Below are positions 14,250-32,061 of a stretch of 64,000 bases of DNA, piece by piece. Position 1 is the stretch's first letter. Every line of letters begins with the position of its first letter. Location of the stretch: the NCBI RefSeq assembly GCF_001672295.1, contig NZ_JXMS01000005.1:62001-126000 (forward strand). The letters run 5' to 3'. Position numbers and translations under genes: made by a program. Source of the stretch: Halodesulfovibrio spirochaetisodalis (lineage in GTDB: Bacteria > Desulfobacterota > Desulfovibrionia > Desulfovibrionales > Desulfovibrionaceae). The notes under the pieces were generated by a model, which searched no databases, was not told the origin of the DNA, and saw nothing but the letters and a program-made list of their open reading frames with translations.

Positions 14250-14987
14250 TTATAATAAAAACTGTGCTGCGCTTCCGGCAATCTTCAAACCAAGAATCGC
14301 CATCAGCACAAAGAAAAATTTTCTGTACGATGCTTCGGAAATATATGCAGAACAATAAATTCCAAGCTTACTGCCGATTACCACAGCCGGTACTGATGCA
14401 GCATAAATCGTCAGAGCATAGGTATCTATATTTCCAACTGCCACTTGAGTGCCTACAATCAACACACCTGTAAGAATAAATCCGGCACTGATAATGGCCT
14501 TAACAGCATTCTTCGGACACCCGCAGTATGCAGTGTATACTGCAAGAGGCGGGCCGTTGAAGCTGAATGCCATTCCAAGAGAACTGGACATTACGCCTGC
14601 CACATATCCCCATGCGGGATTTACTACTCTGTCTTCCTTTGATTTAAAAACCAAACTCCAGATAGCGTAAAAGGCAACAAACGCTCCCATCCCGAACCGA
14701 AGTAATTGTTCGGGGACAAATTGCAGCGCATACGCGCTCAGCACCACTCCGGGTACCGCTCCGATAAGCAGCGGTTTTGTATACTTCCATTCAATGTGCT
14801 TACGGTAAATCCAGCCTGCATGGCAGTTCAGTGTAAGAACAATCATGGTTGCACTTGGTACAAGAACTGACACGTCCATCACATAACTGATGATCGGCAT
14901 CGCAACCATTGCTGCGCCAAATCCGGCAAGGCCGTTAATAAAGCCGCCGACAAACCACCCCATCGCAATAAAAAGAATATGTTCCAT
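14250..14987 (-). CDS. TauE/SafE-family membrane transporter, probable sulfite exporter
   Basis: 245 residues with about eight predicted transmembrane helices. The N-terminal FVGGFINGLAGFGAAMVAMP and internal SLGMAFSFNGPPLAVY are the two half-repeat signatures of TauE/SafE proteins. It is the last gene of the minus-strand isethionate operon, 23 bp after the sigma-54 regulator. Family members near sulfonate-degrading genes are proposed to export sulfite or sulfoacetate. Relief of excess sulfite from isethionate cleavage is inferred. Confidence 0.82.
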   Translation of the reverse strand: MEHILFIAMGWFVGGFINGLAGFGAAMVAMPIISYVMDVSVLVPSATMIVLTLNCHAGWIYRKHIEWKYTKPLLIGAVPGVVLSAYALQFVPEQLLRFGMGAFVAFYAIWSLVFKSKEDRVVNPAWGYVAGVMSSSLGMAFSFNGPPLAVYTAYCGCPKNAVKAIISAGFILTGVLIVGTQVAVGNIDTYALTIYAASVPAVVIGSKLGIYCSAYISEASYRKFFFVLMAILGLKIAGSAAQFLL

Positions 14988-15010: not shown

Positions 15011-16405
15011 CTACTGCTTCATCTTACGGAAAATAGTAGTTCTGTTTACTTTCAGAACTTCGGAAGCTTTGTTGACGGAACCATAGGTATCAAGCGCTTG
15101 CTGAATAACACGTCGTTCAAGCTCTGCCATGATCTCTTTCAACGATTTACCCTGATCTTTGGAATCAAGCTCCACATTCGGCAGACAGTCCATAGGGTGT
15201 CTGGAATTGATGGACGGTGGCAGATCATTTGCGGAAATCTCTGAATGCTCAAGAGTAACCACAAGGCTCTGAACAAGGTTTTCCAATTCACGGATGTTAC
15301 CAGGCCAGCGGTATTTCAACAGCAGCTGCATGGCATCACGGGCGCATGTGATATCTTTCTTATATTTCTCTCCGTAGATAGAGAGGAAATGTTCAACAAG
15401 ACCCGGAATCATTTCTGTACGCTCACGAAGCGGTGGAATATCCACAACAGCAACACGCAGACGGTAGAACAAGTCGCTACGGAAATTCCCTTTGCGGACT
15501 TCTTCTTCAAGATTGCGGTTTGTTGCAGCGATAATGCGAACATCCACTTTTTTCGCAACAGAAGCACCTACTCGGACAACTTCCTGATCCTGCAGAACAC
15601 GCAACAGCTTTGCCTGCATGGAAAGGGGCAATTCACCTATTTCATCAAGAAATACGGTACCGCGGTTCGCCATTTCAAAATGGCCAGGCTTTCCTTTGGA
15701 TGTCGCACCGGTAAATGCGCCAGGAGCATAGCCGAACAGTTCAGATTCAATAAGATTTTCAGAAATACTGCCACAGTCAACCTTCAGAAACATTTCGTCC
15801 CTGCGCGGGCTGCTGTCATGGGCAAGACGCGCAAACCAGTCTTTACCCACACCTGTTTCACCAAGCAAAAGCATGGTGGCGTCAGTTTCGGCAATACGTT
15901 TAATAAGAGAAACAAGCTGCTGCACCTGAGAATCATAGAACATATTATCAGGATTATTATCTGTAGAATCCTGAGAGGTCAGGTGTGCAAGCTGCTTTGA
16001 GAAAAGAGAAATTTGTTCTTTTTGCTGCGCAATCTGCTTACGCATTTGCCCGATAAGGGTAATGTCGCGTGCAAGTGTTACAACAAGGATGAGTTCACCG
16101 TCATCGTCAAAAACAGGAAAGCCGCGTAAAACAAGGCGCTTGCCGGTTTTAAGCTGCTGTACGACGGTTGCGGGCTTACCCGTTTTTACTATCTCTGGGT
16201 TCAGGACTGCATCAAAGATGCCACTGTCTTTCAGGTACCGGACATCCTTACCACGCAATTCACCTTCCGTCAGACCGGTGAGGCGTTCATACATGGAGTT
16301 AACGAACAGCGTCTTGCCGTCCTTATCCGTAATATAGATGCCATCGTCCAATACTTCAAAAACGTGCCGGACAGAGGCTCCGATTTTATCCAGATAGGTA
16401 TCCAT
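15011..16405 (-). CDS. PAS-domain sigma-54-dependent activator of the isethionate locus
   Basis: 464 residues. An N-terminal PAS domain (about 10-120, [17 protein letters not shown]) and a short coiled coil precede the AAA+ domain with Walker [10 protein letters not shown], the intact loop GAFTGA, Walker [11 protein letters not shown], and [12 protein letters not shown] Fis-type HTH ([22 protein letters not shown]) ends the protein. It lies between the activase and exporter genes of the isethionate operon, while sigma-54 promoters precede dctP and islA. It is thus the best candidate for binding the TGTTGCAACA sites between them. What the PAS domain senses is unknown. Confidence 0.88.
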
Positions 16406-16515: not shown

Positions 16516-17430
16516 TTAACCGATTTGCTTAGCAATCTCCACGAGAGGTAAGAACACTTCGTTAGCGAGAGATACTTCGCCCATTGGGTACTCACGACCT
16601 AAGTTCGTGTACTTCTGAGTACCAAGGCGGTGGTATGCGAGCAATTCATATTCAACGTCAAGGTCTTTGATGAAATCAACGATTGCCTGAATGTCTTCAG
16701 GAGTATCATTAAAGCCCGGGATAACCGGTGTGCGAATGCGGATTTTAAGCTTTGGATGAGCTTCGCGCAGCGCTTTAATGTTCTTCAGGAGAAGTTCGTT
16801 GGTTACACCGCAAAATTCTTTGTGCTTCTCAGGATCCATGCTTTTGATGTCCATCATCACGTAGTTCAGGTACTTTCCTGCTTCTACGAGAGTTTCTGTC
16901 TGAACATGACCGCATGTTTCAACTGCTGTTTTAATGTAACGGCGTTTTGCTTCTTTAAGCAAGGCAATAGCAAACTTAGGCTGAGCAAAAGGCTCGCCGC
17001 CACCAAGGGTAAGACCACCACCGGAACGTGCGTAGAACATGGCGTCTTTTTCTACGGAATCGATGGCTTTCTTTACTGTCATCTCTTCACCGTAGCTAAT
17101 CAGTGCGCCAGCAGGACACGCCTCGGCACACGCCATACAGTTAGTGCAGGTATCCCAGTTTACAGCAATTTTATCGTCATCGCCCTGAGTAAGAGAGCCG
17201 GCTGTGCAAACTTCAGCACAGCGCAGGCACTTTGAAAGAGTCAGGCACTTGCCTGAGTTGTAGGCAAGCTCCGGCTTAAACGATTGTGATTCCGGGTTAC
17301 TACACCACTTACAAGAAAGGGGACACCCCTTCAGGAAAACAACTGTGCGAATGCCCGGACCATCATGGACAGAATATTTCTGAATGTTAAAGACTTGACC
17401 AGTTGTTTCTAAAATTTCTTTTTGAGTCAT
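16516..17430 (-). CDS. islB: Radical SAM activating enzyme for the glycyl radical C-S lyase (IslB/IseH-like)
   Basis: 304 residues. The N-terminal radical SAM motif is CPLSCKWC (CxxxCxxC), inside the activase signature SVHDGPGIRTVVFLKGC. An inserted bacterioferredoxin-like region (about 55-100) has two four-Cys clusters, including CTNCMACAEACP. GGGEPFAQP and DIKSMD follow as in other glycyl radical activases. The enzyme uses SAM and [4Fe-4S] clusters to abstract hydrogen from the Gly of its partner. It is in the operon with the TRAP transporter, and the only glycyl radical enzyme nearby is IslA. Confidence 0.88.
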   Translation of the reverse strand: MTQKEILETTGQVFNIQKYSVHDGPGIRTVVFLKGCPLSCKWCSNPESQSFKPELAYNSGKCLTLSKCLRCAEVCTAGSLTQGDDDKIAVNWDTCTNCMACAEACPAGALISYGEEMTVKKAIDSVEKDAMFYARSGGGLTLGGGEPFAQPKFAIALLKEAKRRYIKTAVETCGHVQTETLVEAGKYLNYVMMDIKSMDPEKHKEFCGVTNELLLKNIKALREAHPKLKIRIRTPVIPGFNDTPEDIQAIVDFIKDLDVEYELLAYHRLGTQKYTNLGREYPMGEVSLANEVFLPLVEIAKQIG

Positions 17431-17512: not shown

Positions 17513-19375
17513 TTAGTCTACAAAAAGCAAAGGAATTGCCGGACAGTAAGTAATGAGCAAGAGAACCGCGATCATGAGGCCAACCAGCGGCATTGCCACT
17601 TTGGAAAGCTTTTCGATCTTAGCATCGGCAACACCACTCGCAACAAAGAGGTTTACACCTACAGGCGGGGTTACGAAGCCAACAGCAAGGTTAACAACCA
17701 TTACAATACCGAAGTGGACAGGATCTACACCGACCTTCATAACGATAGGTAAAAGGATCGGGGTAAGAATAACGATAGCTGCAAGAGCTTCCATGAAGGT
17801 ACCAACAATCAGAAGCAGAATGTTGATGAGGAAGAGAATCATCAGCTTGTTGCTGGTGAGGCTCATCATCGCATTTGCAATTGTTGTAGGAACCTGCTCA
17901 ATGGTCATGATGTTACCAAAAATGGTAGCCATAGCCATCAGTACGATTACGATCGCAGATGTGGAACAAGCTTCCATGAAGCTTGGTACCAGGTTGGTGA
18001 AGTTAAGTTCGCGGTATACGAACACACCAACAACAAGACCGTAAAACGCTGCAAGCGCTGCTGCTTCGGTAGGAGTCATGATACCACCGTAAATACCACC
18101 AAGGATAATTACTGGAACCATGAGTGCCCACTTGGCATCCCAGAACGCACGCATGAAAGTGGATGCATTACGTTCACGCTGTTCGCCTTTCCAACCACGT
18201 TTTCTGGAGTAAATGTAAGCGTAGGTCATAAGAGCAAGACCGGTAAGAACCCCCGGTACAATACCACCCATGAAGAGCTTACCAATGGATACCTGAGCAG
18301 ATACACCATATACAACAAACGGGTTAGAAGGCGGAATCATTACGCCGATAGCACCGGACGCAGCAACGATCGCTGCTGCAAAGAGCTTATCGTATCCGCG
18401 CTCAACCATCGCCGGAATGGTCAAAGAACCAATCGCTGCTACAGTCGCAGGACCGGAGCCGGAGATAGCTGCGAAGAACATACAAGTAGCAATAGTAGCC
18501 AGTGCCATACCGCCGTGCAAAGAACCAAGCATTTCATCAGCAAGGTTCAAAAGGCGTTTGGAAAGGCCACCAGCACCCATGAACACACCCGCTGCAATAA
18601 AGAACGGGATAGCCATGATCGGGAAACTGTCGATTGATGTGAATGTAATCTGTGCAACATATTCAATCGGCAGAGTTCCTGTTGCGTAAATGGTTGCAGT
18701 CGCTGCGAGACCAAGGCCGATGGAAATCGGTACACCAATTACGAGGAAAAGAAGGAAGTAACCGAACAAAACCGGAAGGGTGTTCAGATCTTCACTGATA
18801 AGAACCGGAGCTGCAATAGCTGCTGTGAATGCAACACCGAGAAGAGTATCAACCAGACCACATTCTTTTGCCTGAGCATATAAGTCCTGAAGCAGACGGA
18901 TGCCCATCAGCGCAAAGCCGATCGGAAGAATGAGGTAAGGAATAAAGTAGCTCATGTTTGTAGCTGGTGCCACCTGTGGATACTCAAGGAGCATCTCAAG
19001 ATGGTTCAAGCCCATGTAGAACACAACAGCAACAAGAATCAGGAAGCACAGATCTACTACAACCCAGCTCATTTTCTGCAGTCGAGCAGGGAGCCGATCG
19101 TATACGATGTCTACACGAATATTGTTGCGGTTCTTAATAGCTACCGGAATAGCAAGATATGAAATCCAAATAAAAATGAAACGAGCGAGCTCTTCAGTCC
19201 AAATTGCCGCACTGGCATCGGATGAAAAGTACGCTCCAATATATCTATAGAAAGTCTGAAAAGTAATAATGAGAATGATGCTGAGCATCCCCGTAAAAAG
19301 AAACGGTTTCTCAAAATTGTCGTCCAGCCATGCAAGCCAGGACTTCTTTTCTGCTGTCTGGGAAAGAGTTGTCAT
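17513..19375 (-). CDS. TRAP transporter fused small and large membrane subunits (DctQ-DctM)
   Basis: 620 residues. The first 165 or so have four helices and match DctQ (FEKPFLFTGMLSIILIITF, then IWTEELARFIFIW). The rest has about twelve helices and is DctM, with GIPISIGLGLAAT-like and GGIYGGIMTPTEAAA motifs and the end CPAIPLLF. TRAP transporters import organic acids and sulfonates with Na+ or H+. It sits between dctP and the activase gene. Fusion of Q and M is known in the family. The substrate isethionate is inferred from the neighbouring lyase. Confidence 0.9.
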   Translation of the reverse strand: MTTLSQTAEKKSWLAWLDDNFEKPFLFTGMLSIILIITFQTFYRYIGAYFSSDASAAIWTEELARFIFIWISYLAIPVAIKNRNNIRVDIVYDRLPARLQKMSWVVVDLCFLILVAVVFYMGLNHLEMLLEYPQVAPATNMSYFIPYLILPIGFALMGIRLLQDLYAQAKECGLVDTLLGVAFTAAIAAPVLISEDLNTLPVLFGYFLLFLVIGVPISIGLGLAATATIYATGTLPIEYVAQITFTSIDSFPIMAIPFFIAAGVFMGAGGLSKRLLNLADEMLGSLHGGMALATIATCMFFAAISGSGPATVAAIGSLTIPAMVERGYDKLFAAAIVAASGAIGVMIPPSNPFVVYGVSAQVSIGKLFMGGIVPGVLTGLALMTYAYIYSRKRGWKGEQRERNASTFMRAFWDAKWALMVPVIILGGIYGGIMTPTEAAALAAFYGLVVGVFVYRELNFTNLVPSFMEACSTSAIVIVLMAMATIFGNIMTIEQVPTTIANAMMSLTSNKLMILFLINILLLIVGTFMEALAAIVILTPILLPIVMKVGVDPVHFGIVMVVNLAVGFVTPPVGVNLFVASGVADAKIEKLSKVAMPLVGLMIAVLLLITYCPAIPLLFVD

Positions 19376-19441: not shown

Positions 19442-20467
<1,026 letters not shown>

Positions 20468-20521
20468 TTAAAAAAAACCAGCGCATCCATAAAGCCGTTA
20501 AGATGCACTGCCGATTATAAA

Positions 20522-20537
20522 AGCAATACCAATGCCA
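20522..20537 (-). promoter_or_regulatory. Sigma-54 promoter of the dctP operon
   Basis: On the minus strand the sequence reads TGGCATTGGTATTGCT, with GG and GC separated by exactly 10 bp as required for -24/-12 elements. It ends about 70 bp before the dctP start. Promoter identity is by motif only. Confidence 0.75.
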
Positions 20538-20795
20538 ATGGGCATTTTTTTAGCTACAATTTGTGATTTTTCGTGCAAGCTAGTTCAGCGCTTTTTTGCC
20601 TCCATATCATCACAAACTGATAAAAGAAGTTCAAAAATTCAATATAACACTCCATAATACATCATTTTTTCAAAAACAGAACAAGCAAACAGTTAAGACT
20701 GTAAATCGAGCTGACCGCCGCCCTAAATTGTACTTACGTTCTAGGCTGTGCAAGCGCTCAAATTCATCCTTCAGGGACAAAAAAGCCCCTCTCAA

Positions 20796-20988
20796 GTTGC
20801 AAAAACGCCAGTTCAAGGTTTCATATCTGCAACACAAAGCCGCGAAAGCCTTTTATATCAGGATACTGAGAAGAACAAAAACGCTTGTTGCAGAGATGCA
20901 TCCCCAGGTGCAATGTTGCAACAATGCACAACCATCTTTTCAGCAGCAAGGAGCCCCATAAAAAGCCGACACGAACAGCCATGCAACA
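20796..20988. promoter_or_regulatory. TGTTGCAACA site cluster A (dctP side)
   Basis: Sites: GTTGCAA 20796-20802, TGCAACA 20828-20834, TGTTGCA 20886-20892, full palindrome TGTTGCAACA 20914-20923, TGCAACA 20982-20988. The full site sits inside a 22-bp near-perfect palindrome at 20908-20929 (GTGCA at one end, TGCAC at the other; only one symmetric pair mismatches). The cluster begins about 260 bp upstream of the dctP sigma-54 promoter, a normal enhancer distance. Confidence 0.7.
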
Positions 20989-21292
20989 ATCTGAAATAAA
21001 ACGTTATTGAAGAAAAACAATACACAAAACGCCTTCAGCCACCGCTCTCATTTCGCCCTTTTGCACTTTTTTTCACAATAATAACTGACCTTTCTCACAT
21101 GACCGCCCCAAGTACGAAGACGACCATATTCGCTCACGAGCCCTCTTGCAGACCTCAGCAATATAAATAAGACTGACTGAACATACAGTCAACTCACTAC
21201 GCACTCTATCATTATATATAGAGCAAAAGCCTTCACCTATTACCATACTTTTCATTTAATTTCAGAATGTTACTTGGAACCCCACAAAACCA

Positions 21293-21397
21293 TGTTGCAA
21301 CGATGCAAATCATGAACGACAGTAGCAGATATGCAACAATCCATAACATACTGTTTTTACAGAACTGCACAAAGTAGGTTTTCCACATGTTGCAACA
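21293..21397. promoter_or_regulatory. TGTTGCAACA site cluster B (islA side)
   Basis: Sites: TGTTGCAACG 21293-21302, TGCAACA 21332-21338 and the perfect TGTTGCAACA at 21388-21397. The cluster ends about 290 bp upstream of the islA sigma-54 promoter. Together with cluster A it frames a 300-bp centre without sites, so each promoter appears to own one cluster. Confidence 0.7.
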
Positions 21398-21690
21398 ACG
21401 CAACGGTTTTATGCTATTTTTGCAAAGCATTAGAACCTCTGCCACCCTGCACGCCTTTTTCACGAGCTATTTTTCACAAAGAATACTACCTTTGAACATT
21501 TCTCACGGATACAGCTTCTCCGTGCTCAGGAAATATCCACGCAAGCCCAAACCCCGCTTTATTCAATAGGATTGAGGCAGTAATTCAATTTTTTTGAATC
21601 TCTTTTGCCGATTATTCACACCTCCGCCAAGACATCGAGTTCATGTTTTTCGCTACTTTTCTAAGAAAAAAGCACTCCGACTGCCTATGT

Positions 21691-21706
21691 TGGCATCACC
21701 TTTGCT
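21691..21706 (+). promoter_or_regulatory. Sigma-54 promoter of islA
   Basis: TGGCATCACCTTTGCT has GG and GC separated by exactly 10 bp. It lies about 200 bp before the islA start, leaving a long untranslated leader. Motif-based call. Confidence 0.75.
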
Positions 21707-21904
21707 CTAAGAGAAACACAGGGCGCGGCTCTCTCAGAAGCAACCATACGAATCGCTGATATTAGCTTTTGAAGAACGCACTCTTACTAATGAGAATCCA
21801 AATTTACTGCTGCTGAGCACACAGCGGCCGCAGCATTTTTTAACCCACAGGTACTGCACAGAAAACTGTGCCACCTACTTGAACCTAATTCACAGGAGTC
21901 AGTT

Positions 21905-24385
21905 ATGTCTTGTTGTGTATCACCTCACGAACAGCGTCTGCTCGATAAAATTGAAGGCAAAGAAGATATCTACCGCGCATCCCACCCGCGTGTATTCAAA
22001 ATCCTCGAAACCTTCGACAACGTTCGTCCAATCATCGACATTGAGCGTGCTAAATACTTCACCGAGTCCATGAAAGAGACCGAAGGTGAAATGCTCTGCC
22101 TGCGTTGGGCAAAAGCAATGAAGCACATTGCTGAGAACATCACTGTTTACATCGACGACGACAACCTCATTTGTGGTCGTGGTGGTGTAAAAGGCCGTTA
22201 CGGTCTGCTCTACCCTGAACTCGATGGTGACTTCCTCGACATCGCTGTTGAAGATCTCCCTAACCGTACTGAATCTCCTTTCTCTATTTCTGCAGAAGAC
22301 GCAAAAGTAGTTGTTGAAGAGATCGCTCCTTACTGGAAAGGTAAAACTTACCACGAAGCTCTCAACAAATCTTTCCCAGAAGAAGTACACAAACTTACTT
22401 ACGATGATCCAGAAGGTCTTGCTTCCCGCTTCATCGTTAACGAAACTTCTTCTTTCCGTTCTTCCATTCAGTGGGTTCACGACTACGAAAAAATCCTCAA
22501 GCGTGGTTTTGGTGGCATTAAAGCAGAAGCTCTCGAAAAAATCGAAGCTCTCGATCCGCTTTCCCCAATCGACAACGTTGAGAAAAAACCTTTCCTCGAG
22601 TCCATCGTAATCGTTTGTGACGCTGTTATCACTTGGGCACGTCGTCACTCCGAGCTCGCAGCTGAGTACGCTAAGAAAGAATCTGATCCAGTACGTAAAG
22701 CTGAACTCGAAAAAATGGCTGAAATTTGTGCTCACGTTCCTGAGCACCCAGCTCGTACTTTCCACGAAGCTGTTCAGTCCCAGTGGTTCACTCAGATGTT
22801 CTCCCGTATCGAGCAGAAAACAGGTACAATCGTATCTAACGGCCGTATGGACCAGTACTTCTACCCTTACTACCAGGCTGACGTAGAAGCTGGCATCCTC
22901 GACGACGAGAAAGCTCTTGAACTCCTCGAGTGTCTCTGGGTTGGTATGGCACAGTTCATCGACCTCTACGTTTCCCCTACCGGCGGCGCATTCAACGAAG
23001 GCTACGCTCACTGGGAAGCTGTAACTATCGGTGGTCAGACTCCAGAAGGTCGCGACGCAACCAACGAACTGACTTACCTCTTCCTTAAATCAAAACGTGA
23101 ATTCCCGCTTCACTACCCTGACCTTGCAGCGCGTATTCACTCTTGCTCTCCTGAGCGCTACCTCGCAGACGTTGCTGAAACCATTAAGGACGGCTCCGGC
23201 TTCCCTAAACTCATCAACGACGAAGAAGTAGTACCTCTTTACGTTTCCAAAGGTGCAACCTTTGAAGAAGCTTACGACTACGCTGTTTCCGGTTGTACCG
23301 AAGCGCGTATGCCTAACCGCGACACATACACTTCCGGTGGTGCATACATCAACTTCGTAGCAGCTCTCGAAATGGTTCTGCACAACGGTAAAATGCTCAA
23401 GCACGGCGACCAGGTTCTCGGTCTCGAAACCGGTGACCCTCTCTCCTTCGAAACTTGGGAAGAGTTCTTTGCTGCATACGAAAAACAGCATCATCACTTC
23501 CTCAAGACTGCATTCTACCAGCAGTACGTAATCAACAACCTTCGTGCTAAGCACTTTGCACAGCCAATGGGCTCTGCAATGCACGACCTCTGCATGAAGC
23601 ATTGCCTCGACCTGCACACCCCGCAGATCCCAGAAGGCATCAACATGGGTTACTTCGAGCACATGGGTCTTGGTACTCTCGTAGACTCCCTCTGCGCTAT
23701 TAAGAAACTCGTATTCGAAGACAAAAAACTCACAATGAAAGAAGTTATCGAAGCTTGTGATTGCAACTTCGAAGGCAAAGAAGACGTACGTCAGCTCCTC
23801 ATGACTGCTCCTTGCTACGGCAACGACGATGAGTACGCTGATGAAGTAGCTAACAAAATTGACTCCTTCAACGTTCTCTACGGCCAGAAATACGCTAAAG
23901 AACTCGGCATGCACAACGACGTTCGTTACGTACCATTCACCTCCCACGTACCATTCGGTAAAGTAGTTGGTGCATCTCCTAACGGTCGTCTTGCTTGGAC
24001 TCCGCTTTCTGACGGTTCTTCTGCATCTCACGGTGCTGACAAAAACGGTCCTACTGCGGTTCTCCTTTCCAACTACACTTCTAAGAACTACGGCCACCGC
24101 GATCGCGCTGCTCGTATGCTGAACATCAAGTTCACTCCTAAGTGTGTTGAAGGTGAAGAAGGTACAGAAAAACTCGTTTCCTTCATCCGTACATTCTGCG
24201 ACCTCAAACTGTGGCACGTACAGTTCAACGTTATCAACAAAGATACTCTCGTTGCTGCACAGCAGGATCCAGAAAAATACCGTAACCTTATCGTTCGTAT
24301 CGCAGGTTACTCTGCATACTTCGTAGATCTCTCTCCAGATCTCCAGAACGACCTCATCGCACGTACTGCTCACGAATCTGTTTAG
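21905..24385 (+). CDS. islA: Glycyl radical isethionate sulfite-lyase (IslA/IseG)
   Basis: 826 residues; AGGAG 9 bp before the ATG. The N-terminal PFL-like barrel ends in the active-site loop with Cys464 and Glu466 ([10 protein letters not shown]), the thiyl-radical Cys and general-base Glu of the dehydratase/lyase branch. The glycyl radical loop is RIAGYSAYF with Gly801. Homology of the whole sequence to the isethionate C-S lyases of Bilophila and Desulfovibrio is by recall. The reaction splits isethionate into acetaldehyde and sulfite in the cytoplasm. Codon use is strongly biased, which points to very high expression. It diverges from the activase-transporter operon. The related 2,3-dihydroxypropanesulfonate lyase HpsG is the main alternative; no DHPS-specific neighbours are seen. 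Confidence 0.82.
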
Positions 24386-24554: not shown

Positions 24555-26615
24555 ATGCCGTACCAAAATTCACCACGTACTCCTGTGCCTGACAAAGATT
24601 TTTTTGTTAGCACAGAACTTAATGCACAGCGCTATGCGCAAATTATCCAGAAATCACATTCTCGGTCTAAAGCAATGGGAATTGACCCCAATCAAACAGC
24701 TTCCCCGGAAAAGTACAAACTTAGCCCAGAGCAACTGCAACTACGCATAAAAGCAAGCCAGCCTTTCTACGACCTTGTCACAACTCAAATGTCCACTCTG
24801 TACCAAATTTTAAAGGGTTCAGGATTCTGTATGGCTGTAGCTGATGCTGACGGATATGTGCTGCACTCCCTTGGCGACAAACAAATTCTGGAACATTACA
24901 AGAAGGGAAATTGCATGCCCGGATACCTATGGACTGAAAAGGCTGTAGGTACGTGCGGTATAGGTCTGGCGCTCAAGGAAGGCATTCCTATCCAGATCTC
25001 CGGCAAAGAAATGTTCTGTAAACGAGCGCACAATATTACGAACTCTGCAACGCCAGTATACGACAACAACGGTAAGCTTCTTGGTGCAATAGCTCTTAGC
25101 GGGCATGCAGACAAAGTACACCTGCATACACTCGGGATGGTAATCCTTACTGCCAAAGCTATCCGCTCACAGATCGGTGAAATAGAAAAGGCACGGGAAA
25201 TTGCTGTCCGCAACACCTACATGACAGCTTTGATGGAATCTGACCAACGAGGTATCATTGCTCTCAACGATGCCGGCGAGATTATGCAGATCAATCGAAA
25301 AGCAAATGCGCTCCTTGGTCTCGACCAAGGCGTTGTTCCCAATACGTTGTCCGAATCTGAACGTTCCATCCCGCAAATCAATATAGCAAATCTCACCCGT
25401 ACCCGCTTAGACTGGCAACAAGTGCTCCAGTCAAAATCAGGTTTTACAGAAAGAGAAGTAACCTTTATTCGAGGTGATTCTCGATTCCCGCTTGTCTGCA
25501 CACTAGACCCGGTTACCATGCCTGACGGAGAACATGCCGGAGGGATTCTGCTTGTTATGGAGCATGACAGAATGCTGCAGCTGGCAAATGAGATTGCCGG
25601 CTCACAAGCCCGCTTTACATTTGAGTCAATTCTTGGATCAAGTGCCCCGCTAGAAGAGGCTAAAAAAGTTGCCAGAACTGCTGCCAGAGGTGATGCTTCA
25701 GTGCTTTTATGCGGGGAAACCGGAACCGGTAAGGAGTTATTTGCACAAGCAATTCATAATGCCAGTCCAAGAAGCAACAAGCCTTTTGTTGTCATTAACT
25801 GTGGAGCAATCCCCAACGAACTGCTTGAAAGTGAACTCTTTGGCTATGTGGAAGGAGCGTTTACAGGTGCACTAAAAGGCGGACGCCCCGGTAAATTTGA
25901 ACTGGCAGACGGCGGCACCCTTTTTCTGGATGAAATAGGTGATATGCCACTCGATATGCAGGTGAAAATTCTTCGGGCTCTTCAATCCGGTGAAGTAAAC
26001 CGAGTTGGTGACATACAGCCGATCAAAGTAGATTTGCGCATTATTGCAGCTACGAATGTCGATCTGGACAGTGCGATCAGCAGAGGCTCCTTTCGCGAAG
26101 ACCTCTTTTATCGAATCAGCACACTCGCCATTACCATTCCACCGCTTCGCGAACGAGGTCATGATGTTCTGACACTAGCAGAAACATTTCTGCGCCGAAT
26201 TCGACCTAGCCTTGGCAAACCTGATTTAGAATACAGCCCAAAGGCATCACAATCTCTCACACAAGCCCCGTGGCAAGGGAATATCCGCCAACTGGAAAAT
26301 GCAGTTGAGCGCGCAGTAAATGTCTGTGAAGAAAATTTTATTACGCCCGAAGATCTTGGACTGGAATATACCAACAAAGAGGGATCTGATCAGGATACCT
26401 TGGCCGCCAGACAAGTGCAGGAACTGAGTCTTCCCGCAGAAGTTACCAATCTAAATCCGAACAGTAATGCCATGTTAGGAGAGATGGAACACGCACTTAT
26501 AAAACGTTTGATAGAAGAACATGCAGGTAACATCAGCCAGATAGCCCGAGTGATGGGAGTCAGCCGCCCCACTCTTTATAGAAAACTAAAAAAATACCAT
26601 ATTGCTTCTTGCTAG
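24555..26615 (+). CDS. AcoR-like sigma-54-dependent activator with GAF and PAS domains
   Basis: 686 residues; a GGGGGAGAA site precedes the ATG. An N-terminal region with a GAF-like domain (about 75-210, [30 protein letters not shown]) is followed by a PAS domain (about 225-340), the AAA+ domain with Walker [15 protein letters not shown] and Walker [12 protein letters not shown], and a Fis HTH ([21 protein letters not shown]). The layout matches AcoR/DhaR activators. Although adjacent to islA, it shares its operator pattern with the downstream SSS-RidA-dehydrogenase genes, which are its probable targets. Confidence 0.88.
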
Positions 26616-26650
26616 TGTAACGTTTTATTACATGTAATAAAACATTACAC
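26615..26650. promoter_or_regulatory. Abutting pair of TGTAA-N7-TTACA operators
   Basis: Two 17-mers, 26616-26632 and 26633-26649, abut exactly and together form a 36-bp inverted repeat with one mismatched pair. The repeat overlaps the stop codon of the activator gene. It might also fold as a hairpin in RNA, but recurrence of the 17-mer elsewhere favours protein binding. Confidence 0.75.
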
Positions 26651-26734
26651 ATTGAGCAGTTGCTCAAAAAATATAACCAACAGTCTAAGAACAGGGCTTC
26701 TACGCCCTGTTTTTATATTGAACATGCTTTCAAC

Positions 26735-26751
26735 TGTAATATTTTGTTACA
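26735..26751. promoter_or_regulatory. Third TGTAA-N7-TTACA operator before the symporter gene
   Basis: TGTAATATTTTGTTACA, 83 bp upstream of the -24 element. Together with the pair at 26615-26650 it forms an enhancer-like array. Confidence 0.72.
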
Positions 26752-26817
26752 CTTTTACAAGCCAACAACAATCCTGCAAACATTATACATATCAAATAGT
26801 TAACTAAAAATAACGCA

Positions 26818-26833
26818 TGGTACGCTCCTTGCT
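26818..26833 (+). promoter_or_regulatory. Sigma-54 promoter of the symporter-dehydrogenase genes
   Basis: TGGTACGCTCCTTGCT has the GG-N10-GC spacing of -24/-12 promoters and lies about 100 bp before the symporter ATG, downstream of three operators. Confidence 0.78.
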
Positions 26834-26936
26834 CATTGCAGATGCAGTCTTTGGATAGAGCTTTTTATTATCTCACTATTCTGCCATTTGCTGACGACTG
26901 TTATGTCGCTTAGCAACTAAACAATGAGGAGTATGC

Positions 26937-28385
26937 ATGGGACTTCACTGGTTAGACATGATCGTTGTATTTTTATACTTCGGGCTTGTCATTTGGATGG
27001 GTATCTACACCATGAGCAAAGTCGAAAATTTCGACGATTATGCTGTTGCCGGACGTAGTGTACCAACTGCTATTTTGTTCGCTACAATTGCAGCTACACT
27101 ATGCGGTGGTGGAGCTACAATTGGCCGTATCGCCTTTATGCACAAGACAGGAATTATTGTTTTTGCCGGTCTTATAGGCGTTGTTTTAAACCAATTCTGG
27201 TCCGGTTTCTTTATCGCAGGAAAAGTGCGGGAAGCTGGTAAAAACATTTACAGTATTGGTGACATATTTGGTCTGTACTACGGTCGTGCAGGACGCCTTT
27301 TCTCAAGTATCGTAGCGTTCTTATTCTGCCTCGCCCTGTTCGGAGTACAGATTCTTGCGATGGGTCGCATTCTTCAGACTGCCACCGGCATGGATCTCAT
27401 TCCGGCTGCAATTCTTTCTTCCGTTATCACAGTTGCCTACACTTGGTCAGGTGGCATGCTTGCAGTAGTCTTAACCGATGCTGTCCAATACGTTGTTCTC
27501 GCAGTAGGTATTTCCTTGTGTGGTATTCTGGCTATGAACAATGCCGGTGGATACGATCACATAATGGAAGTACTGAATAATGCGCCGGAAATGGCTACAA
27601 AGCTCCAGCTTTTTGCGGACTGGACCCCAATGCAGTTTTTGGGATTGTTCCTTGCGTTCCTGCTCGGTGAGTTCTGTGCTCCGTACTTTATTCAACGCTA
27701 CGCAACGGCAAAGTCCGCTAAGGATTCTAAAAAAGGCGTTCTCATCTTTGCTGGCTATTACGGCTTCTTTCTTGCGACAACAGCTGGTATCGGTCTTGCC
27801 TCCCTCGTATTACAGCCCAATGTAGAACCGGGTCTTGCAATGACCAATCTCGTACGAGACACCCTGCCAATGGGACTTGCCGGTATCGTATTTGGTGCGT
27901 TGCTCGCGGCTGTCATGTCAACAGGTGACTCCTTTATCAACACAGCAGCTGTTATATACACCCGTGACATCTACAATGAATTCGTAAACCCGAAAGCATC
28001 TCAGAGCACCCTGTTAAAGCAATCCCGCTGGGCTACTCTGATTATCGGTAGTGGTTCCATCGCTGTTGCTGTTCTTTTCCAGGATGTTTTCGGACTCATG
28101 ATCTACGTATTCAAACTCTGGCCTTCAGCCATTTTGCCTCCATTGCTCATAGCGCTCTCAGGTAAAATAGGAACCATCAAAATCTCTCCATACGCAGGGG
28201 CACCTGCTATTATTGCCGGCCTCGCAACCTGTCTCATCTGGGGTGATAAAGTACTGCATGATCCATTTGGCATTCCTGCCAACCTTGCAGGAATTGTAGC
28301 CAACTGTTCAGTCTTATTCATCATTCATATGGCTACCAAAAACAAAGAGCCTAAAGGTGCATTTGTACCTGAGCACCTTATTTAG
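26937..28385 (+). CDS. Sodium:solute symporter (SSS family)
   Basis: 482 residues with about 12-13 transmembrane helices. Typical SSS features are YFGLVIWMGIYTMSKVENFDDYAVAGRSVPT near the N-terminus (given here only as a landmark: residues 14-44), AYTWSGGMLAVVLTDAVQY and ALLAAVMSTGDSFINTAAVI with the Na+-site Ser/Thr region. AATGAGGAG precedes the ATG. The family imports amino acids, pantothenate, proline or other small solutes with Na+. Its substrate is probably that of the dehydrogenase encoded downstream. Confidence 0.9.
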   Translation: MGLHWLDMIVVFLYFGLVIWMGIYTMSKVENFDDYAVAGRSVPTAILFATIAATLCGGGATIGRIAFMHKTGIIVFAGLIGVVLNQFWSGFFIAGKVREAGKNIYSIGDIFGLYYGRAGRLFSSIVAFLFCLALFGVQILAMGRILQTATGMDLIPAAILSSVITVAYTWSGGMLAVVLTDAVQYVVLAVGISLCGILAMNNAGGYDHIMEVLNNAPEMATKLQLFADWTPMQFLGLFLAFLLGEFCAPYFIQRYATAKSAKDSKKGVLIFAGYYGFFLATTAGIGLASLVLQPNVEPGLAMTNLVRDTLPMGLAGIVFGALLAAVMSTGDSFINTAAVIYTRDIYNEFVNPKASQSTLLKQSRWATLIIGSGSIAVAVLFQDVFGLMIYVFKLWPSAILPPLLIALSGKIGTIKISPYAGAPAIIAGLATCLIWGDKVLHDPFGIPANLAGIVANCSVLFIIHMATKNKEPKGAFVPEHLI

Positions 28386-28393
28386 GAGGATAT

Positions 28394-28510
28394 ATGGAAG
28401 TTATCGTAAAGTACCTTATCTATGCCTCCTTTGCCCTCAATATCATTTGTGGAGCATGGGTTGCCGTTAACGTCTTCTCCTGGCTGAAAAGCTTAGACAA
28501 GAAGGATTAA
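28394..28510 (+). CDS. Small symporter accessory membrane protein (38 residues)
   Basis: ATG at 28394 with a perfect AGGAGG (28385-28390) that overlaps the symporter stop codon. The product MEVIVKYLIYASFALNIICG... has one transmembrane helix (about 5-30) and a charged C-terminus ending in KKD. Tiny one-helix proteins encoded directly behind SSS permeases are known as symporter small accessory proteins. A role in assembly or stability of the symporter is inferred. Confidence 0.8.
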   Translation: MEVIVKYLIYASFALNIICGAWVAVNVFSWLKSLDKKD

Positions 28511-28520
28511 GTGAACACAG

Positions 28521-28541
28521 GCCGCCTGTTCTACAGGCGGC
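28521..28541 (+). repeat. Hairpin between accessory protein and ridA
   Basis: GCCGCCTGT and ACAGGCGGC pair around TCT. No T-tract follows, so it is more likely an mRNA processing or stability hairpin than a terminator. Confidence 0.5.
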
Positions 28542-28701
28542 TCTATGTAGCAACTCTGCTTTTGATTGCCTCATTTCTATGAAGCAATCTAGCGGCGCCT
28601 GTGTTCAGCAACACCCTACGCTACGCCAGTGCACAAGCGCCGCTACTTTGCTGGGTTCAATACCAAGCCCCGCCTCCGGCACAATAAAAAAGGATTATAG
28701 C

Positions 28702-29076
28702 ATGTCTGTAATTATACGACACGGCACACACCCAAGGCTTCCTGTTTCCAACGCTGTAGAAGCAAACGGATGGCTCTATGTTACCGGCCAAGTTCCACGC
28801 GACGCAGAAGGCAACCTTCTGGCAGGAAACATGACGGAGCAAGCCCGTCTAACGCTCTCCAACCTGAAGCAAGTTATAGAAAGCGCCAACTATACAACAA
28901 AGGACATCGTACGCATCGGGGTCTGGATAGATGACCCTCGTGACTTTCCGGAATTTAATAGTGTTTTTGCAGATTTTTTTGACATTGAGCATGCACCGGC
29001 ACGTGTCACTATCCAAAGTTCCATGATGTGCGACTGTAAAGTAGAAGTAGACGCAATCGCTTACAAAGCACCGTAA
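28702..29076 (+). CDS. ridA: RidA-family enamine/imine deaminase
   Basis: 124 residues from the ATG at 28702 (AAAAAGGAT upstream); the frame is open further 5' but without a start signal. Motifs are SNAVEANGWLYVTGQVPRD, the segment VRIGVWIDDPRDFPEFN and HAPARVTIQSSM containing the Arg that binds the carboxylate of the substrate. RidA hydrolyses reactive 2-imino/enamine acids to keto acids. Its place between an amino-acid-type symporter and an amino/imino-acid dehydrogenase fits removal of the imine product. Confidence 0.88.
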   Translation: MSVIIRHGTHPRLPVSNAVEANGWLYVTGQVPRDAEGNLLAGNMTEQARLTLSNLKQVIESANYTTKDIVRIGVWIDDPRDFPEFNSVFADFFDIEHAPARVTIQSSMMCDCKVEVDAIAYKAP

Positions 29077-29241
29077 TGCACTGATGTACTTGGAAATAGA
29101 GAGACAGGCAGCAACTGCCAGTAATTTTGATTTCTCGTTTACTTACCATCTCAGGATTTGGGAACTGCACCGCAAATCTGATCTGCTGCTAAACCATATA
29201 ATAAGTAGATACGATGTTATTGCAGGAAAAAGGATCGCATA

Positions 29242-30357
29242 ATGCGACAGAATTTTGATGTGCTCATTGTGGGCGGCGGCGTTACAGGTGCTGCCGTGGG
29301 CTACGGACTTGCTAAAAAAGGCATTAGCGTCGGTGTAGTGGATGCTACACCTTCTGTTGACCGGGCTTCGCGAAGCAACATGGGACTTATCTGGTGTCAA
29401 TCTAAAGCACTTGGCAACAGAAACTATGTTGAATGGTGCTTTTCTTCTTCCAAGCTATTCAAAAGCTTAGCCAGCGAACTGAAAAAAACTTCCGGCATTG
29501 ATATTGAATACACTGAATCCGGCGGCCTTATTCCCTGTCTTGGTGAAGAAGAATTTACCAAACGCAGTGATTACCTTGATGCACTTCGCAAAGAAGCAGG
29601 CGAAAAAGGCTACCCCGGAACAATGCTGACTCGTGACGAACTTCAAGCAAAGCTTCCAAATATTACTTTTGGCACCAACGTTACAGGTGCAACATGGTGC
29701 GCAGAAGATGGCTTAGTCGAACCACTCAAACTTATGTTCGCCCTCCGGCATGGCATGGAACACCTTGGCGGAACACTTATCCCGAACACCAATGTCATCG
29801 ATATTGCCAAGACAGAATCCGGTTACCTTATCACAACTGATGATGGTGAAATTGAATGTACTCGTCTGGTACTCGCAGCTGGACTAGGCAATCGTCAGCT
29901 TGCCGGTAAATTCAACGTAACGGTGCCTGTTGTCCCAAACAAGGGTCAGGTATTTCTTACCGAACGCGTGCCAGACATCCTGCCTTCACCACTTCTTGGA
30001 ATCACACGTACACGTGGCGGTACTATCATGATCGGCTTCGAACATGAGTACGTAGGAACCGATACGTCACTTCATACAGAAAAATTTTGTCACGTAGCTA
30101 AATGGGCAACAGACATCTGGCCTGCTCTTGCAGACCTTCGCATTATCCGTACATGGAGCTGTTTGCGAGTATGGCCGAAAGATGGTTTCCCGATTTATGA
30201 CAAAATTCCGGGGCATGAAAATGCTTTCATCTTAAATGCTCATAGTGCCGTAACCCTTGCAGCCGTTCATATTGCTGAATTGCCTGACTTCATAATGGGC
30301 AAAGAGATTTGCAAAACAGCAGCTGATTTCACGCTTTCACGTTTCGACGAGAAGTAG
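29242..30357 (+). CDS. DAO-type FAD-dependent amino/imino-acid dehydrogenase subunit (HcnC/OoxB-like)
   Basis: 371 residues. The FAD-binding motif DVLIVGGGVTGAAVGYGLAK begins at residue 6, followed by the DAO-fold landmarks NMGLIWCQSK, EDGLVEPLKLMFAL and the C-terminal WPKDGFPIYDKIPG. GGATCGCATA precedes the ATG. In the HcnABC, octopine/nopaline oxidase and D-hydroxyproline dehydrogenase families this subunit carries the substrate-oxidising FAD. It is followed by genes for the ferredoxin-like and second flavoprotein subunits, so a heterotrimer is expected. The substrate is not given by the sequence. Confidence 0.85.
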   Translation: MRQNFDVLIVGGGVTGAAVGYGLAKKGISVGVVDATPSVDRASRSNMGLIWCQSKALGNRNYVEWCFSSSKLFKSLASELKKTSGIDIEYTESGGLIPCLGEEEFTKRSDYLDALRKEAGEKGYPGTMLTRDELQAKLPNITFGTNVTGATWCAEDGLVEPLKLMFALRHGMEHLGGTLIPNTNVIDIAKTESGYLITTDDGEIECTRLVLAAGLGNRQLAGKFNVTVPVVPNKGQVFLTERVPDILPSPLLGITRTRGGTIMIGFEHEYVGTDTSLHTEKFCHVAKWATDIWPALADLRIIRTWSCLRVWPKDGFPIYDKIPGHENAFILNAHSAVTLAAVHIAELPDFIMGKEICKTAADFTLSRFDEK

Positions 30358-30385
30358 CTCGCCGTAGTTTTATTTGGAGCTTTTC

Positions 30386-30679
30386 ATGTCCACAAATATA
30401 TCAACCACCTTAGATACTGTTACAATATTCTTTGAAGGCAAGTCCCTGACAGTTCCCGCTGATATTTCTGTTGCTGCAGCTGTACTCGGGCCGGGGCACG
30501 CTGGTCACACTGGGAAAAACCCAGTTATGGACGATAATCGCGCGCCAGTATGTCTCATGGGAGTCTGCTTTGAATGCATGATGGAAATTGACGGCATCCC
30601 TAATCAGCAATCCTGCCTCATCACTGTGAGAGAAGGAATGAAGGTTAAACGGCAGAACACTCTCAGGGAGAAATACTAA
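30386..30679 (+). CDS. [2Fe-2S] ferredoxin-like subunit of the dehydrogenase (HcnA-like)
   Basis: 97 residues, TTGGAG before the ATG at 30386. The Cys cluster CLMGVCFECMMEIDG plus a later Cys in NQQSCLI is the C-x4-C-x2-C...C pattern of the small subunit in HcnABC-type dehydrogenases. It would pass electrons between the two flavoprotein subunits. Its stop overlaps the next start (TAATG). Confidence 0.87.
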   Translation: MSTNISTTLDTVTIFFEGKSLTVPADISVAAAVLGPGHAGHTGKNPVMDDNRAPVCLMGVCFECMMEIDGIPNQQSCLITVREGMKVKRQNTLREKY

Positions 30680-32061
30680 TGCAGGAACAATACGACGTAC
30701 TTGTTATCGGTGCAGGGCCTGCAGGTCTTTCAGCTGCGAGCACTGCTGCTGAAAATGGTCTGGATGTTATTCTTCTTGATGAGCAAGATTCACCGGGCGG
30801 ACAAATTTATCGTTCTGTTTCCGGTAAAAAAAGTTACAGCCGCTTCCTTTCCAAAGAAGACCGTAATGACGGACTCAATCTTGTTGACCGCTTTACCAAA
30901 AGCGGGGCTGTCTATCTTCCCAAAACAACCGTCTGGGATGTATCGCACGATGGGGTATTATGCAGCAGCGATGGTGAATCAAGAGAGATCAAAGCTCAAT
31001 ACATCATGGTTGCAACCGGAGCAATGGAGCGCCCTGTACCTTTCAAAGGGTGGACCACACCTGGGGTCATGAGCGCAGGTTCAGCAGATCTTCTCTACAA
31101 AAGTTCCGGCATCGTACCGCACGGCCCTGTTGTGCTTGCGGGAAACGGCCCCCTTATTCCACTCGTTGCAAACCATCTCAATGAGTTGGGTGTTGAAATT
31201 GCAGGCATTCTAAATACAAGCCCATTCCAGAATAAACCGAAGTCAATGCTGCGTATTCCACTTGCAATTGCAGACATCCCTTTCCTTTTTAAGGGGCTCA
31301 AAATGATGGGAGCCATGTTCCTTGGCGGTGCAAAGCAGTACCATAATGTGACTGAGATAGAAGCAAAGGGAAACGGTCAACTTAATCAGGTATCTTTTGT
31401 ACATCGCGGGCAACATAAAACACTTAATGCTGCTACGCTGCTTGTTCATGAAGGAATGCTTCCGCGCACGCATATAACACGCATGCTGAACCTTGAGCAC
31501 AAGTGGGATCGCGTCCAACGCTATTGGTATGCAAAAACAGACACATTTGGTCGCTCCAGTAATAACGCTATCTATGTTGTAGGTGACGGCCAAAAAGTTC
31601 ACGGCGTGAATGCTGCAACAGCCAAAGGCGAACTTGCCGGTATTGATGTGGCACGCCGCCTGAATGTTCTCTGCGAAAGTGCTGCACAACTGCAAATTGC
31701 TCCTGTAAAGAGACGCCTCTATAAAGCTCTCGCACCACGTGGCTTTGTTGATGCCTTTTTCGCTCCCCGAAAAAACCTTTTTACGATGGTAGACGAGGTT
31801 GTAGTGTGCCGATGTGAAGGCGTAACCGCAGGCGACATCCGTCAAGCCATCAAGGAAGGATGCCACGACGTGAATGAAATCAAATTACGTACCCGATGCG
31901 GCATGGGACCATGTCAGGGACGTATGTGCGGTAGTGCGCTCGCAGAGATTACCGCTGCAACATTACAAACAGAAGTACCAAATGTTGGTGCATTACATAT
32001 TCGACCGCCAATTCGTCCGGTAACCGTTCGCGAATTGCGCGATTTTCCTAGCGCAACGTAA
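30679..32061 (+). CDS. FAD/NAD(P)-dependent oxidoreductase subunit with BFD-like [2Fe-2S] domain (HcnB-like)
   Basis: 460 residues. A Rossmann motif DVLVIGAGPAGLSAASTAAE starts the protein, with DEQDSPGGQIYR and ATGAMERPVPFKGWTTPGV as in HcnB/OoxA/SoxA-type subunits. The C-terminal part has the Cys pattern VVCRCEGVT...RCGMGPCQGRMC of a bacterioferredoxin-associated [2Fe-2S] domain (about 375-425). It overlaps the previous gene by one base, which indicates translational coupling. Probable electron exit route of the amino/imino-acid dehydrogenase. Confidence 0.87.
   Translation: MQEQYDVLVIGAGPAGLSAASTAAENGLDVILLDEQDSPGGQIYRSVSGKKSYSRFLSKEDRNDGLNLVDRFTKSGAVYLPKTTVWDVSHDGVLCSSDGESREIKAQYIMVATGAMERPVPFKGWTTPGVMSAGSADLLYKSSGIVPHGPVVLAGNGPLIPLVANHLNELGVEIAGILNTSPFQNKPKSMLRIPLAIADIPFLFKGLKMMGAMFLGGAKQYHNVTEIEAKGNGQLNQVSFVHRGQHKTLNAATLLVHEGMLPRTHITRMLNLEHKWDRVQRYWYAKTDTFGRSSNNAIYVVGDGQKVHGVNAATAKGELAGIDVARRLNVLCESAAQLQIAPVKRRLYKALAPRGFVDAFFAPRKNLFTMVDEVVVCRCEGVTAGDIRQAIKEGCHDVNEIKLRTRCGMGPCQGRMCGSALAEITAATLQTEVPNVGALHIRPPIRPVTVRELRDFPSAT

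Follow-up and report, generated by a model that had tools for sequence, protein, structure and literature searches.

The window analysed here, a stretch of 64,000 nucleotides of Halodesulfovibrio spirochaetisodalis, carries a gap of 1452 bp (20453–21904) between two divergent genes, dctP on the minus strand (start 20452) and islA on the plus strand (start 21905). A preliminary description of this gap reported two clusters of palindromes between two sigma-54 promoters and read them as a bidirectional enhancer of an isethionate regulon. The question is what these palindromes are, which protein would bind them, and where else the same sites occur. The genes and promoters concerned are as follows.

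14250–14987, minus strand: TauE/SafE-type exporter, next gene in the operon after EBP1 (domain match)
15011–16405, minus strand: EBP1, PAS-sigma54 AAA+-HTH activator, candidate IslR (PF00158, PF25601, HTH_50/HTH_8)
16516–17430, minus strand: islB, radical SAM activase (NCBIfam sulfopropanediol dehydratase activating enzyme, above cut-off)
17513–19375, minus strand: fused DctQM TRAP permease (family/domain matches)
19442–20452, minus strand: dctP, TRAP solute-binding protein (family/domain matches)
20522–20537, minus strand: sigma-54 promoter of the dctP operon, TGGCATTGGTATTGCT
21691–21706, plus strand: sigma-54 promoter of islA, TGGCATCACCTTTGCT
21905–24385, plus strand: islA, isethionate sulfite-lyase, glycyl radical enzyme (closest PDB matches 5ymr and 7kq3)
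24555–26615, downstream of islA: EBP2, GAF-PAS sigma-54 activator

The minus-strand order is dctP, fused dctQM, the IslB-type activase, EBP1 and the TauE-type exporter. In the translation of EBP1 the GAFTGA loop is readable, and a sigma-54 AAA+ domain and a Fis-type helix-turn-helix are present. The glycyl radical enzyme was identified by its closest solved relatives, with PDB bit scores of 1552 for 5ymr (which we take to be the IslA of D. vulgaris), 1442 for 7kq3 (named isethionate sulfite-lyase in the PDB listing) and 1228 for 6lon (presumably HpsG). The NCBIfam model NF048011, for (2S)-3-sulfopropanediol dehydratase (HpsG), scores the same enzyme at 1571 bits with a cut-off of 1000. HpsG by this label alone was rejected, since 5ymr and 7kq3 outscore 6lon, and the genes are isethionate genes as had been proposed. 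Since NF048011 exceeds its cut-off on IslA, automatic annotation may mislabel IslA enzymes.

Two sets of genomes were used for comparison. IslA relatives were encoded in 263 stretches, of which the best 80, from species genomes, were used as loci (L numbers); the window IslA matches that of L016 at 97%. Ten genomes of the genus, own included, were also compared (G numbers). IslA is present in G000, G022, G024, G027, G028 and G025, and EBP1 occurs at 97% identity or more in the first five of these and at 54% in G025; it was not found in G023, G026, G029 and G030. The dctP promoter reads TGGCAY-N5-TTGCT at the same position in five of five genus genomes (own included) and forms a conserved island when the window is aligned with L016. 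That of islA is identical in five of five genomes with IslA at 95% or more (own plus four); a search for its pattern in G025, whose IslA is 77% identical, gave no match.

The pattern on which the preliminary description was built, TGTTGCAACA, occurs exactly at 20914 and 21388 in the gap, with a one-mismatch copy at 21293. Two exact copies compare with a mean of 0.005, and none of 2000 dinucleotide shuffles reached two. When up to two mismatches were allowed, the four copies observed were unremarkable (mean 1.48; 131 of 2000 shuffles reached four). TTGCA-N4-TGCAA with at most one mismatch was found seven times in the gap against 0.23 expected, a number seen in none of 2000 dinucleotide shuffles. 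The eight sites reported earlier hence do not hold for TGTTGCAACA itself, with its two exact copies, and do hold in substance for this dyad, with its seven.

The form of the motif was derived from other loci. Regions upstream of isl genes at 46 EBP1-linked loci, with the window and L016 left out, were searched for dyads having halves of 4 or 5 bases and spacers of 0–20, the expectation being taken from base composition. TGCA-N4-TGCA ranked first (49 against 0.58 expected) and GTTGC-N6-GCAAC second (18 against 0.03). The symmetric matrix from those loci reads GTTGCA-WWWW-TGCAAC, and on the training loci themselves it gave 4.47 sites/kb upstream of isl genes against 0.29/kb elsewhere. This derivation skipped regions with an isl gene ending just upstream on the same strand, by which L086 was hidden. 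The predicted motif is the 16-bp dyad GTTGCA-N4-TGCAAC, and TGTTGCAACA is a single half-site of it plus spacer bases. As a motif TGTTGCAACA was rejected, because relatives vary the spacer bases and keep the half-sites.

With the matrix trained without the window or L016, seven strong sites (two of them overlapping) and one weak site were found, in two arrays. They are listed without strand, bit scores being given at 14-mer starts, 1 bp inside the 16-mer coordinates.

20796–20811: weak dyad, end of array 1 (start 20797, 10.0 bits)
20818–20833: dyad, array 1 (start 20819, 16.9 bits)
20887–20902: dyad, array 1 (start 20888, 15.0 bits)
20907–20930: two overlapping dyads, array 1 (starts 20908 and 20916, 19.2 and 17.1 bits)
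21294–21309: dyad, array 2 (start 21295, 15.3 bits)
21322–21337: dyad, array 2 (start 21323, 16.9 bits)
21356–21371: marginal match, probably no site (7.3 bits; nothing of at least 4.5 bits at the counterpart place in L016)
21389–21404: dyad, array 2 (start 21390, 17.3 bits)

The shuffles and the independent matrix confirm that the palindromes are real. The 22-bp near-palindrome described before is the overlapping pair at 20908–20929, a place that holds a single strong site in each of the other four genus genomes. The two-cluster layout and the promoter distances had also been given correctly: array 1 lies about 270–385 bp upstream of the dctP promoter (271–382 bp) and array 2 about 300–400 bp upstream of the islA promoter (301–396 bp). 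Arrays of several sites, placed upstream of two sigma-54 promoters that are themselves conserved, have the character of an enhancer. A single shared bidirectional enhancer is unsupported, since the two arrays are ~390 bp apart and in this genus each is closer to its own promoter. What stands of the earlier interpretation is therefore the enhancer, the isethionate genes, the candidate binder and the use of a motif for searching; the form of the motif and the single shared enhancer do not.

Read from left to right, the sites of the window are spaced by 22, 69 and 20 bp in array 1 and by 28 and 67 bp in array 2. This layout is matched fully, to within one base, in G022, G027 and G028. The place at 20797 has a site of at least 9.5 bits in four of the five genus genomes; in G024 the outermost array-1 site is absent at 9.5 bits and there is one additional 10.2-bit match. 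G025 has a different layout, with spacings of 133 and 52, and L016 has sites at corresponding positions, mostly with different spacers. Arrays recur at isl loci of other lineages; the two-array layout is not general, since at some loci where dctP and islA diverge (e.g., L043, L051, L058) a single array separates the two genes. The 73 spacings measured in other lineages favour 18–22, 41–45, 51–54 and 61–68 bp, values similar to whole turns of the helix. Helical phasing gave R of 0.43 at 10.5 and 0.56 at 11.5; the periodicity is broad and, on the 34 unique values, not significant, so strict helical phasing was dropped and only the recurrent spacings are claimed.

Conservation was also examined base by base. 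Among the five genus genomes (own included), mean pairwise identity was 0.850 for half-sites and 0.575 for spacers, compared with 0.879 for the promoters and 0.468 for the remainder of 20560–21680. When the seven-site template was slid to 508 other positions, the maximum identity was 0.700. The least conserved site is the outermost weak one at 20797; at 21295 the spacer is conserved too.

We then asked which protein accompanies the sites. An EBP1 relative lies in the fetched stretch at 47 of the 80 loci (best 80 of 263). Twenty-one loci were checked across the whole genome; EBP1 is elsewhere in the genome for 8 more loci and was not found for 11, and 14 loci are cut by contig ends. An ortholog was counted at 43% identity or more over full length and as absent at 40% or less or with the AAA+ domain only, a cut set after seeing the identities; absence rests partly on draft genomes. 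All operon heads were used for this count, so that L086 was no longer hidden. Two or more sites scoring at least 11 bits were present at 49 of 55 loci with an ortholog (41 of 47 with EBP1 in the stretch, 8 of 8 with it elsewhere) and at 0 of 11 loci without one; this comparison leaves out the 14 contig-end loci without a known activator, 10 of which have at least two sites. Outside the training set the counts were 8 of 8 against 0 of 11. Fisher's test for the co-occurrence gives 1e-8, uncorrected for kinship among loci that are not independent. The likely binder of the isl arrays is probably EBP1 (15011–16405), i.e., IslR; the co-occurrence of its ortholog with the sites bears out the earlier proposal of the PAS-sigma54 protein.

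The correspondence has exceptions. No site of at least 11 bits was found upstream of the isl genes at the EBP1-linked loci L024, L052 and L078, and L025, L093 and L095 have one site each; L069 has one site, though no EBP1 ortholog was found there. In most readable EBP1 orthologs the recognition helix is (N/D/S)R(S/T)T(I/V/L/M)FRK, and the best relatives in L069, L091 and L094, which lack an ortholog, read QST(V/I)V(R/K)K. The best relative in L090 has the helix DRSTCFRK, yet there are no sites. Recognition helices were compared for 15 of the 20 own-genome activators listed as matches; one of these, a response-regulator activator, has DRRTLFRK, so the helix alone does not settle specificity.

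Classical sigma-54 enhancers of the NtrC/NifA type consist of multiple dyads 100–400 bp upstream of -24/-12 promoters and bind several activator dimers. The multi-dyad layout found here is similar; the motif and the partner protein differ. Motif, arrays, promoters, conservation and co-occurrence are evident in the sequences, and from these we infer the following route. The Fis-type helix-turn-helix of EBP1 would bind the GTTGCA-N4-TGCAAC dyads, several bound dimers would assemble an AAA+ ring, a sulfonate-related signal would reach the PAS domain, and by looping the ring would contact sigma-54 polymerase on the promoters of dctP and islA. EBP1 would act in trans as well, on arrays at a microcompartment operon and its divergent amidohydrolase gene, an Fe-alcohol dehydrogenase (Fe-ADH) gene and a VTT/UspA operon. 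We regard it as likely that the arrays are upstream activating sequences of EBP1 (IslR), with EBP1 probably also acting in trans on the matching arrays. Uptake, C-S cleavage and acetaldehyde handling would then be switched on together, and one switch may control the whole isethionate pathway. A knockout of islR in D. alaskensis abolishes growth on isethionate (PMC6386719).

The trans arrays came from searches of the own genome. The 16-mer with one mismatch occurs at 20 places against 13 for a reversed-pattern control, and a looser pattern gave 23 single sites against 41 in that control. Single-site counts carry little information, given 20 against 13. Six of the 20 one-mismatch places fall in the window, and the 20 form 10 pairs within 150 bp, with ~0.016 expected under random placement. 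A motif frequency equal to chance had been named beforehand as evidence against the idea; single sites are weakly above or below the control and close pairs far above expectation, so that the criterion was misleading for single sites. Outside the window, the one-mismatch places with close neighbours form candidate arrays at two loci. A VTT-domain gene and two UspA genes have three upstream sites and the promoter TGGCATCCCTGTTGCT. Two strong sites 130 bp apart (L141:7287–7430) lie upstream of alanine dehydrogenase (Ald), where no recognisable sigma-54 promoter was found; they are perhaps another use of the motif. A matrix scan around further single pattern matches contributed three sites between the microcompartment operon and the divergent amidohydrolase gene, three upstream of the Fe-ADH gene, and a pair on contig C23. 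In this sense the motif serves, as predicted, for finding further candidate members. The amidohydrolase and VTT promoters read TGGCAY-N5-TTGCT in five of five genomes, and those of Fe-ADH and EutQ have a variant -24, with T for the first G of GG.

The microcompartment operon lies on a separate contig (C7), unlinked to islA. It encodes EutQ-, phosphotransacetylase-, PduS- and PduT-like proteins, an EutE-like aldehyde dehydrogenase and an actin-like protein (presumably of the EutJ type), with further small shell-like reading frames seen by eye; none of the genes inspected was recognised as encoding a signature enzyme. Fe-ADH was considered as SarD and rejected, having 264 bits against a cut-off of 700; a SarD above cut-off is encoded on contig C2.

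Within the genus, arrays and activator are present or absent together, across few comparable orthologs: Fe-ADH and VTT could be compared with one negative genome, Ald with three (and G025), and EutQ with none. Only the five genomes whose EBP1 is at least 97% identical have the EutQ-type gene, each time preceded by three or four sites, and the amidohydrolase has an array and a sigma-54 promoter upstream in five genomes. The Fe-ADH ortholog has three or four sites in each of the five EBP1 genomes, and that of G029 has none; among 13 Fe-ADH paralogs, 12 have no sites and one has a single 10.9-bit match. For the VTT gene, three sites and a sigma-54 promoter are found in the five EBP1 genomes and neither in G029. 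Ald has two sites of at least 17 bits in four of the five and one in G022, and nothing above 11 bits upstream in G023, G025, G026 and G030. PduS-like relatives at 41–46% occur in G023, G025, G029 and G030, so genes of the PduS type are found outside the EBP1 genomes as well.

The competing explanation that survives best, which we consider unlikely, accepts EBP1 for the isl arrays and assigns those at the microcompartment, Fe-ADH, VTT and Ald genes to another factor, for example the response-regulator sigma-54 activator at L157:7845–9629 (C7). Its gene shares contig C7 with the Fe-ADH gene and the microcompartment operon, at ~16 kb from the latter, and has a hybrid kinase gene and a second TRAP operon as neighbours. 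The recognition helix of the protein, VDRRTLFRKMKQ, is very similar to that of EBP1, and the gap that separates the kinase gene from this TRAP operon contains a 19.3-bit isl-type site (L157 13833). The Ald sites without a sigma-54 promoter also speak for it. So does the Fe-ADH promoter of the EBP1-less G029 (L169), where TTGCAC/T-N5-TTGCT is retained without activator and sites, and where something else may drive Fe-ADH. The same kinase–TRAP gap, however, holds three GRGAC-N6-GTCYC dyads (L157:13882–14024, 62 and 65 bp apart), which we take as the regulator's own since they occur in none of six other regulatory regions tested (isl, microcompartment, Fe-ADH, VTT, Ald). Moreover, where EBP1 is missing the sites are missing too, for Fe-ADH and VTT in G029 and for Ald (above 11 bits) in G023, G026 and G030.

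Other lineages also speak against a second factor, in that separate arrays of the motif stand before amidohydrolase (Amh) or EutQ genes near islA. Among the best 80 of 263 loci, Amh is near islA at 44 and a PduS-like gene at 18. At least two sites (12 bits) precede Amh or EutQ at L054, L064, L073, L074, L076, L077 and L078, at least one of them lying more than 750 bp from any isl gene start. L078, which has no isl-upstream site of at least 11 bits, has two sites before its EutQ-like gene. In D. vulgaris the amidohydrolase DVU2820 was placed under DVU2827 (Kazakov et al., PMC4641369). The kinase, response-regulator activator and GRGAC dyads of L157 make up a probable separate regulatory system beside one IslR-type site.

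Less probable still, in our judgement, is that the isl arrays themselves are bound by another activator, either EBP2 (24555–26615) or the activator of the taurine locus (C2, 39% identical to EBP1). Each is a sigma-54 activator encoded in the own genome. Among the matches listed, a full-length EBP1 relative at 38–39% occurs in the five genomes that have EBP1 and SarD, so that co-occurrence within the genus cannot separate EBP1 from the taurine-locus activator. The taurine promoter also has one dyad-like element 144–145 bp upstream in five of five genomes, scoring 6.9–14.7 bits with the EBP1 matrix. Against this, L016 is the one locus among the best 80 of 263 with EBP2 next to islA, apart from a 40% match in L091, and across those 80 loci the sites follow EBP1. 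The taurine locus has its own TGGCACAAGG-N-TTGCT promoter in five of five genomes, no array of the isl motif and an invariant different dyad, TGAGAA-N4-TTCTCA, and its activator has the helix SQSTIVRK compared with NRTTIFRK in EBP1. Both proteins were judged unlikely binders on the grounds that EBP2 is rarely beside islA and that the taurine dyad and helix differ. The taurine branch seems separately regulated, since it has a different invariant dyad and no isl-motif array, as is also reported for Bilophila (PMC8667426); some cross-recognition may nevertheless occur.

A reading of the palindromes as functionless repeats, due to chance or base composition, has in its favour genome-wide single matches near or below the control, and is practically dismissed by 0 of 2000 shuffles, the clustering, half-sites conserved where spacers are not, and co-occurrence outside the training set.

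With EBP1 (IslR) retained as the probable binder, the arrays can be set beside known systems. It is already known that DVU2827 sites were predicted in D. vulgaris, namely at DVU2822–2825 and at the amidohydrolase DVU2820 (Kazakov 2015, PMC4641369), and that islR is essential in D. alaskensis for growth on isethionate. The relevant part of Kazakov 2015 gives conserved sigma-54 promoters in five Desulfovibrionales and calls DVU2822–2825, which includes C4-dicarboxylate transport genes, a pyruvate formate-lyase operon; the word 'isethionate' is absent from its main text. DVU2824 is, we infer, an IslA-type enzyme. As here, predicted activator sites and sigma-54 promoters would stand at an IslA-type operon and an amidohydrolase, and our amidohydrolase would be a second target and a candidate counterpart of DVU2820. 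Unlike the candidate regulon here, the DVU2827 regulon entry has no microcompartment, alcohol dehydrogenase or VTT/Usp member. Like candidate EBP1, islR of D. alaskensis G20 is a predicted regulator of isethionate genes (Peck et al. 2019, PMC6386719); the passages on islR give no binding motif, and one is given here. Among main texts, no paper on the motif besides Kazakov 2015 was found.

The cluster of Bilophila wadsworthia, as described in the sections on it by Burrichter et al. 2021 (PMC8667426), shares with our set the gene kinds IslAB, PAS regulator, aldehyde dehydrogenase, EutN and other shell proteins, PduT, PduS and amidohydrolase. In Bilophila these genes sit together in one cluster; in our genome the microcompartment operon lies on a different contig from islA, to which shared sites alone join it. 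The same source describes isl clusters of two Desulfovibrio strains without shell genes, and reasons from them that encapsulation seems not strictly necessary. In our comparison ten additional genomes with islA (nine Desulfovibrio/Nitratidesulfovibrio, plus L039) yielded no PduS relative, so the microcompartment part is not universal. Motif arrays are present in former-Deltaproteobacteria sulfate reducers and in Firmicutes (e.g., L074, L076, L081, L084, L085).

We are inclined, with some reserve, to a broader reading, in which the IslR array is a portable module that in Halodesulfovibrio-type marine sulfate reducers unites uptake, C-S cleavage, an unlinked acetaldehyde microcompartment, Fe-ADH and VTT/Usp, and so replaces the gene cluster of Bilophila, the module and its activator being common to former Deltaproteobacteria and Firmicutes. 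If this is true, isethionate would induce microcompartments in sulfate reducers whose isl cluster is shell-less. It becomes testable whether isethionate-derived acetaldehyde is handled in a microcompartment even where no shell genes lie beside islA. New here are the motif, the array layout in sulfate reducers and Firmicutes and the unlinked microcompartment operon with the same sites; the motif is a usable candidate for binding by the regulator of a main route from sulfonates to hydrogen sulfide.

Some further observations were made. Rfam applied to L141 and L142 gave tRNA alone. Single sites occur elsewhere in the own genome on C1, C3 (19.6 bits), C7 (77131), C12, C22, C34, C38 and others; a pair on C23 (L108:1481–1515; 12.5 and 14.7 bits, 21 bp apart) follows an open frame, and the two sites of a pair on C21 are a single inverted repeat. 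The taurine locus (L286:786–8153, C2) comprises alanine dehydrogenase, a class-III aminotransferase, SarD, an amino-acid permease and a divergent PAS-sigma54 activator, and SarD is above cut-off in the same five genomes as EBP1, beside the nearest own-genome paralog of EBP1. TGAGAA-N4-TTCTCA and the element at -144, upstream of the L286 promoter at 6241, are candidate sites of the taurine activator. After islA, the window at 24555–32061 encodes the GAF-PAS sigma-54 activator, a sodium symporter, a RidA-like protein and an amino-acid-oxidase-like set, a gene set found beside islA in L016 only (best 80 of 263 loci).

Blocks of 10–15 bp between the arrays and the promoters are invariant in the five genomes, at 20562–20571, 21469–21479 and 21554–21568. 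A CRP/FNR-like element was sought between arrays and promoters, and matches were near shuffle expectation (15 with three mismatches or fewer). The only match near the pattern was the one at the microcompartment operon, where an inverted repeat TTGTG-N8-CACAA, which we take to be of the CRP/FNR type, lies between array and promoter in five of five genomes (L143:5806–6640, C7), ~285 bp upstream of the EutQ-like gene.
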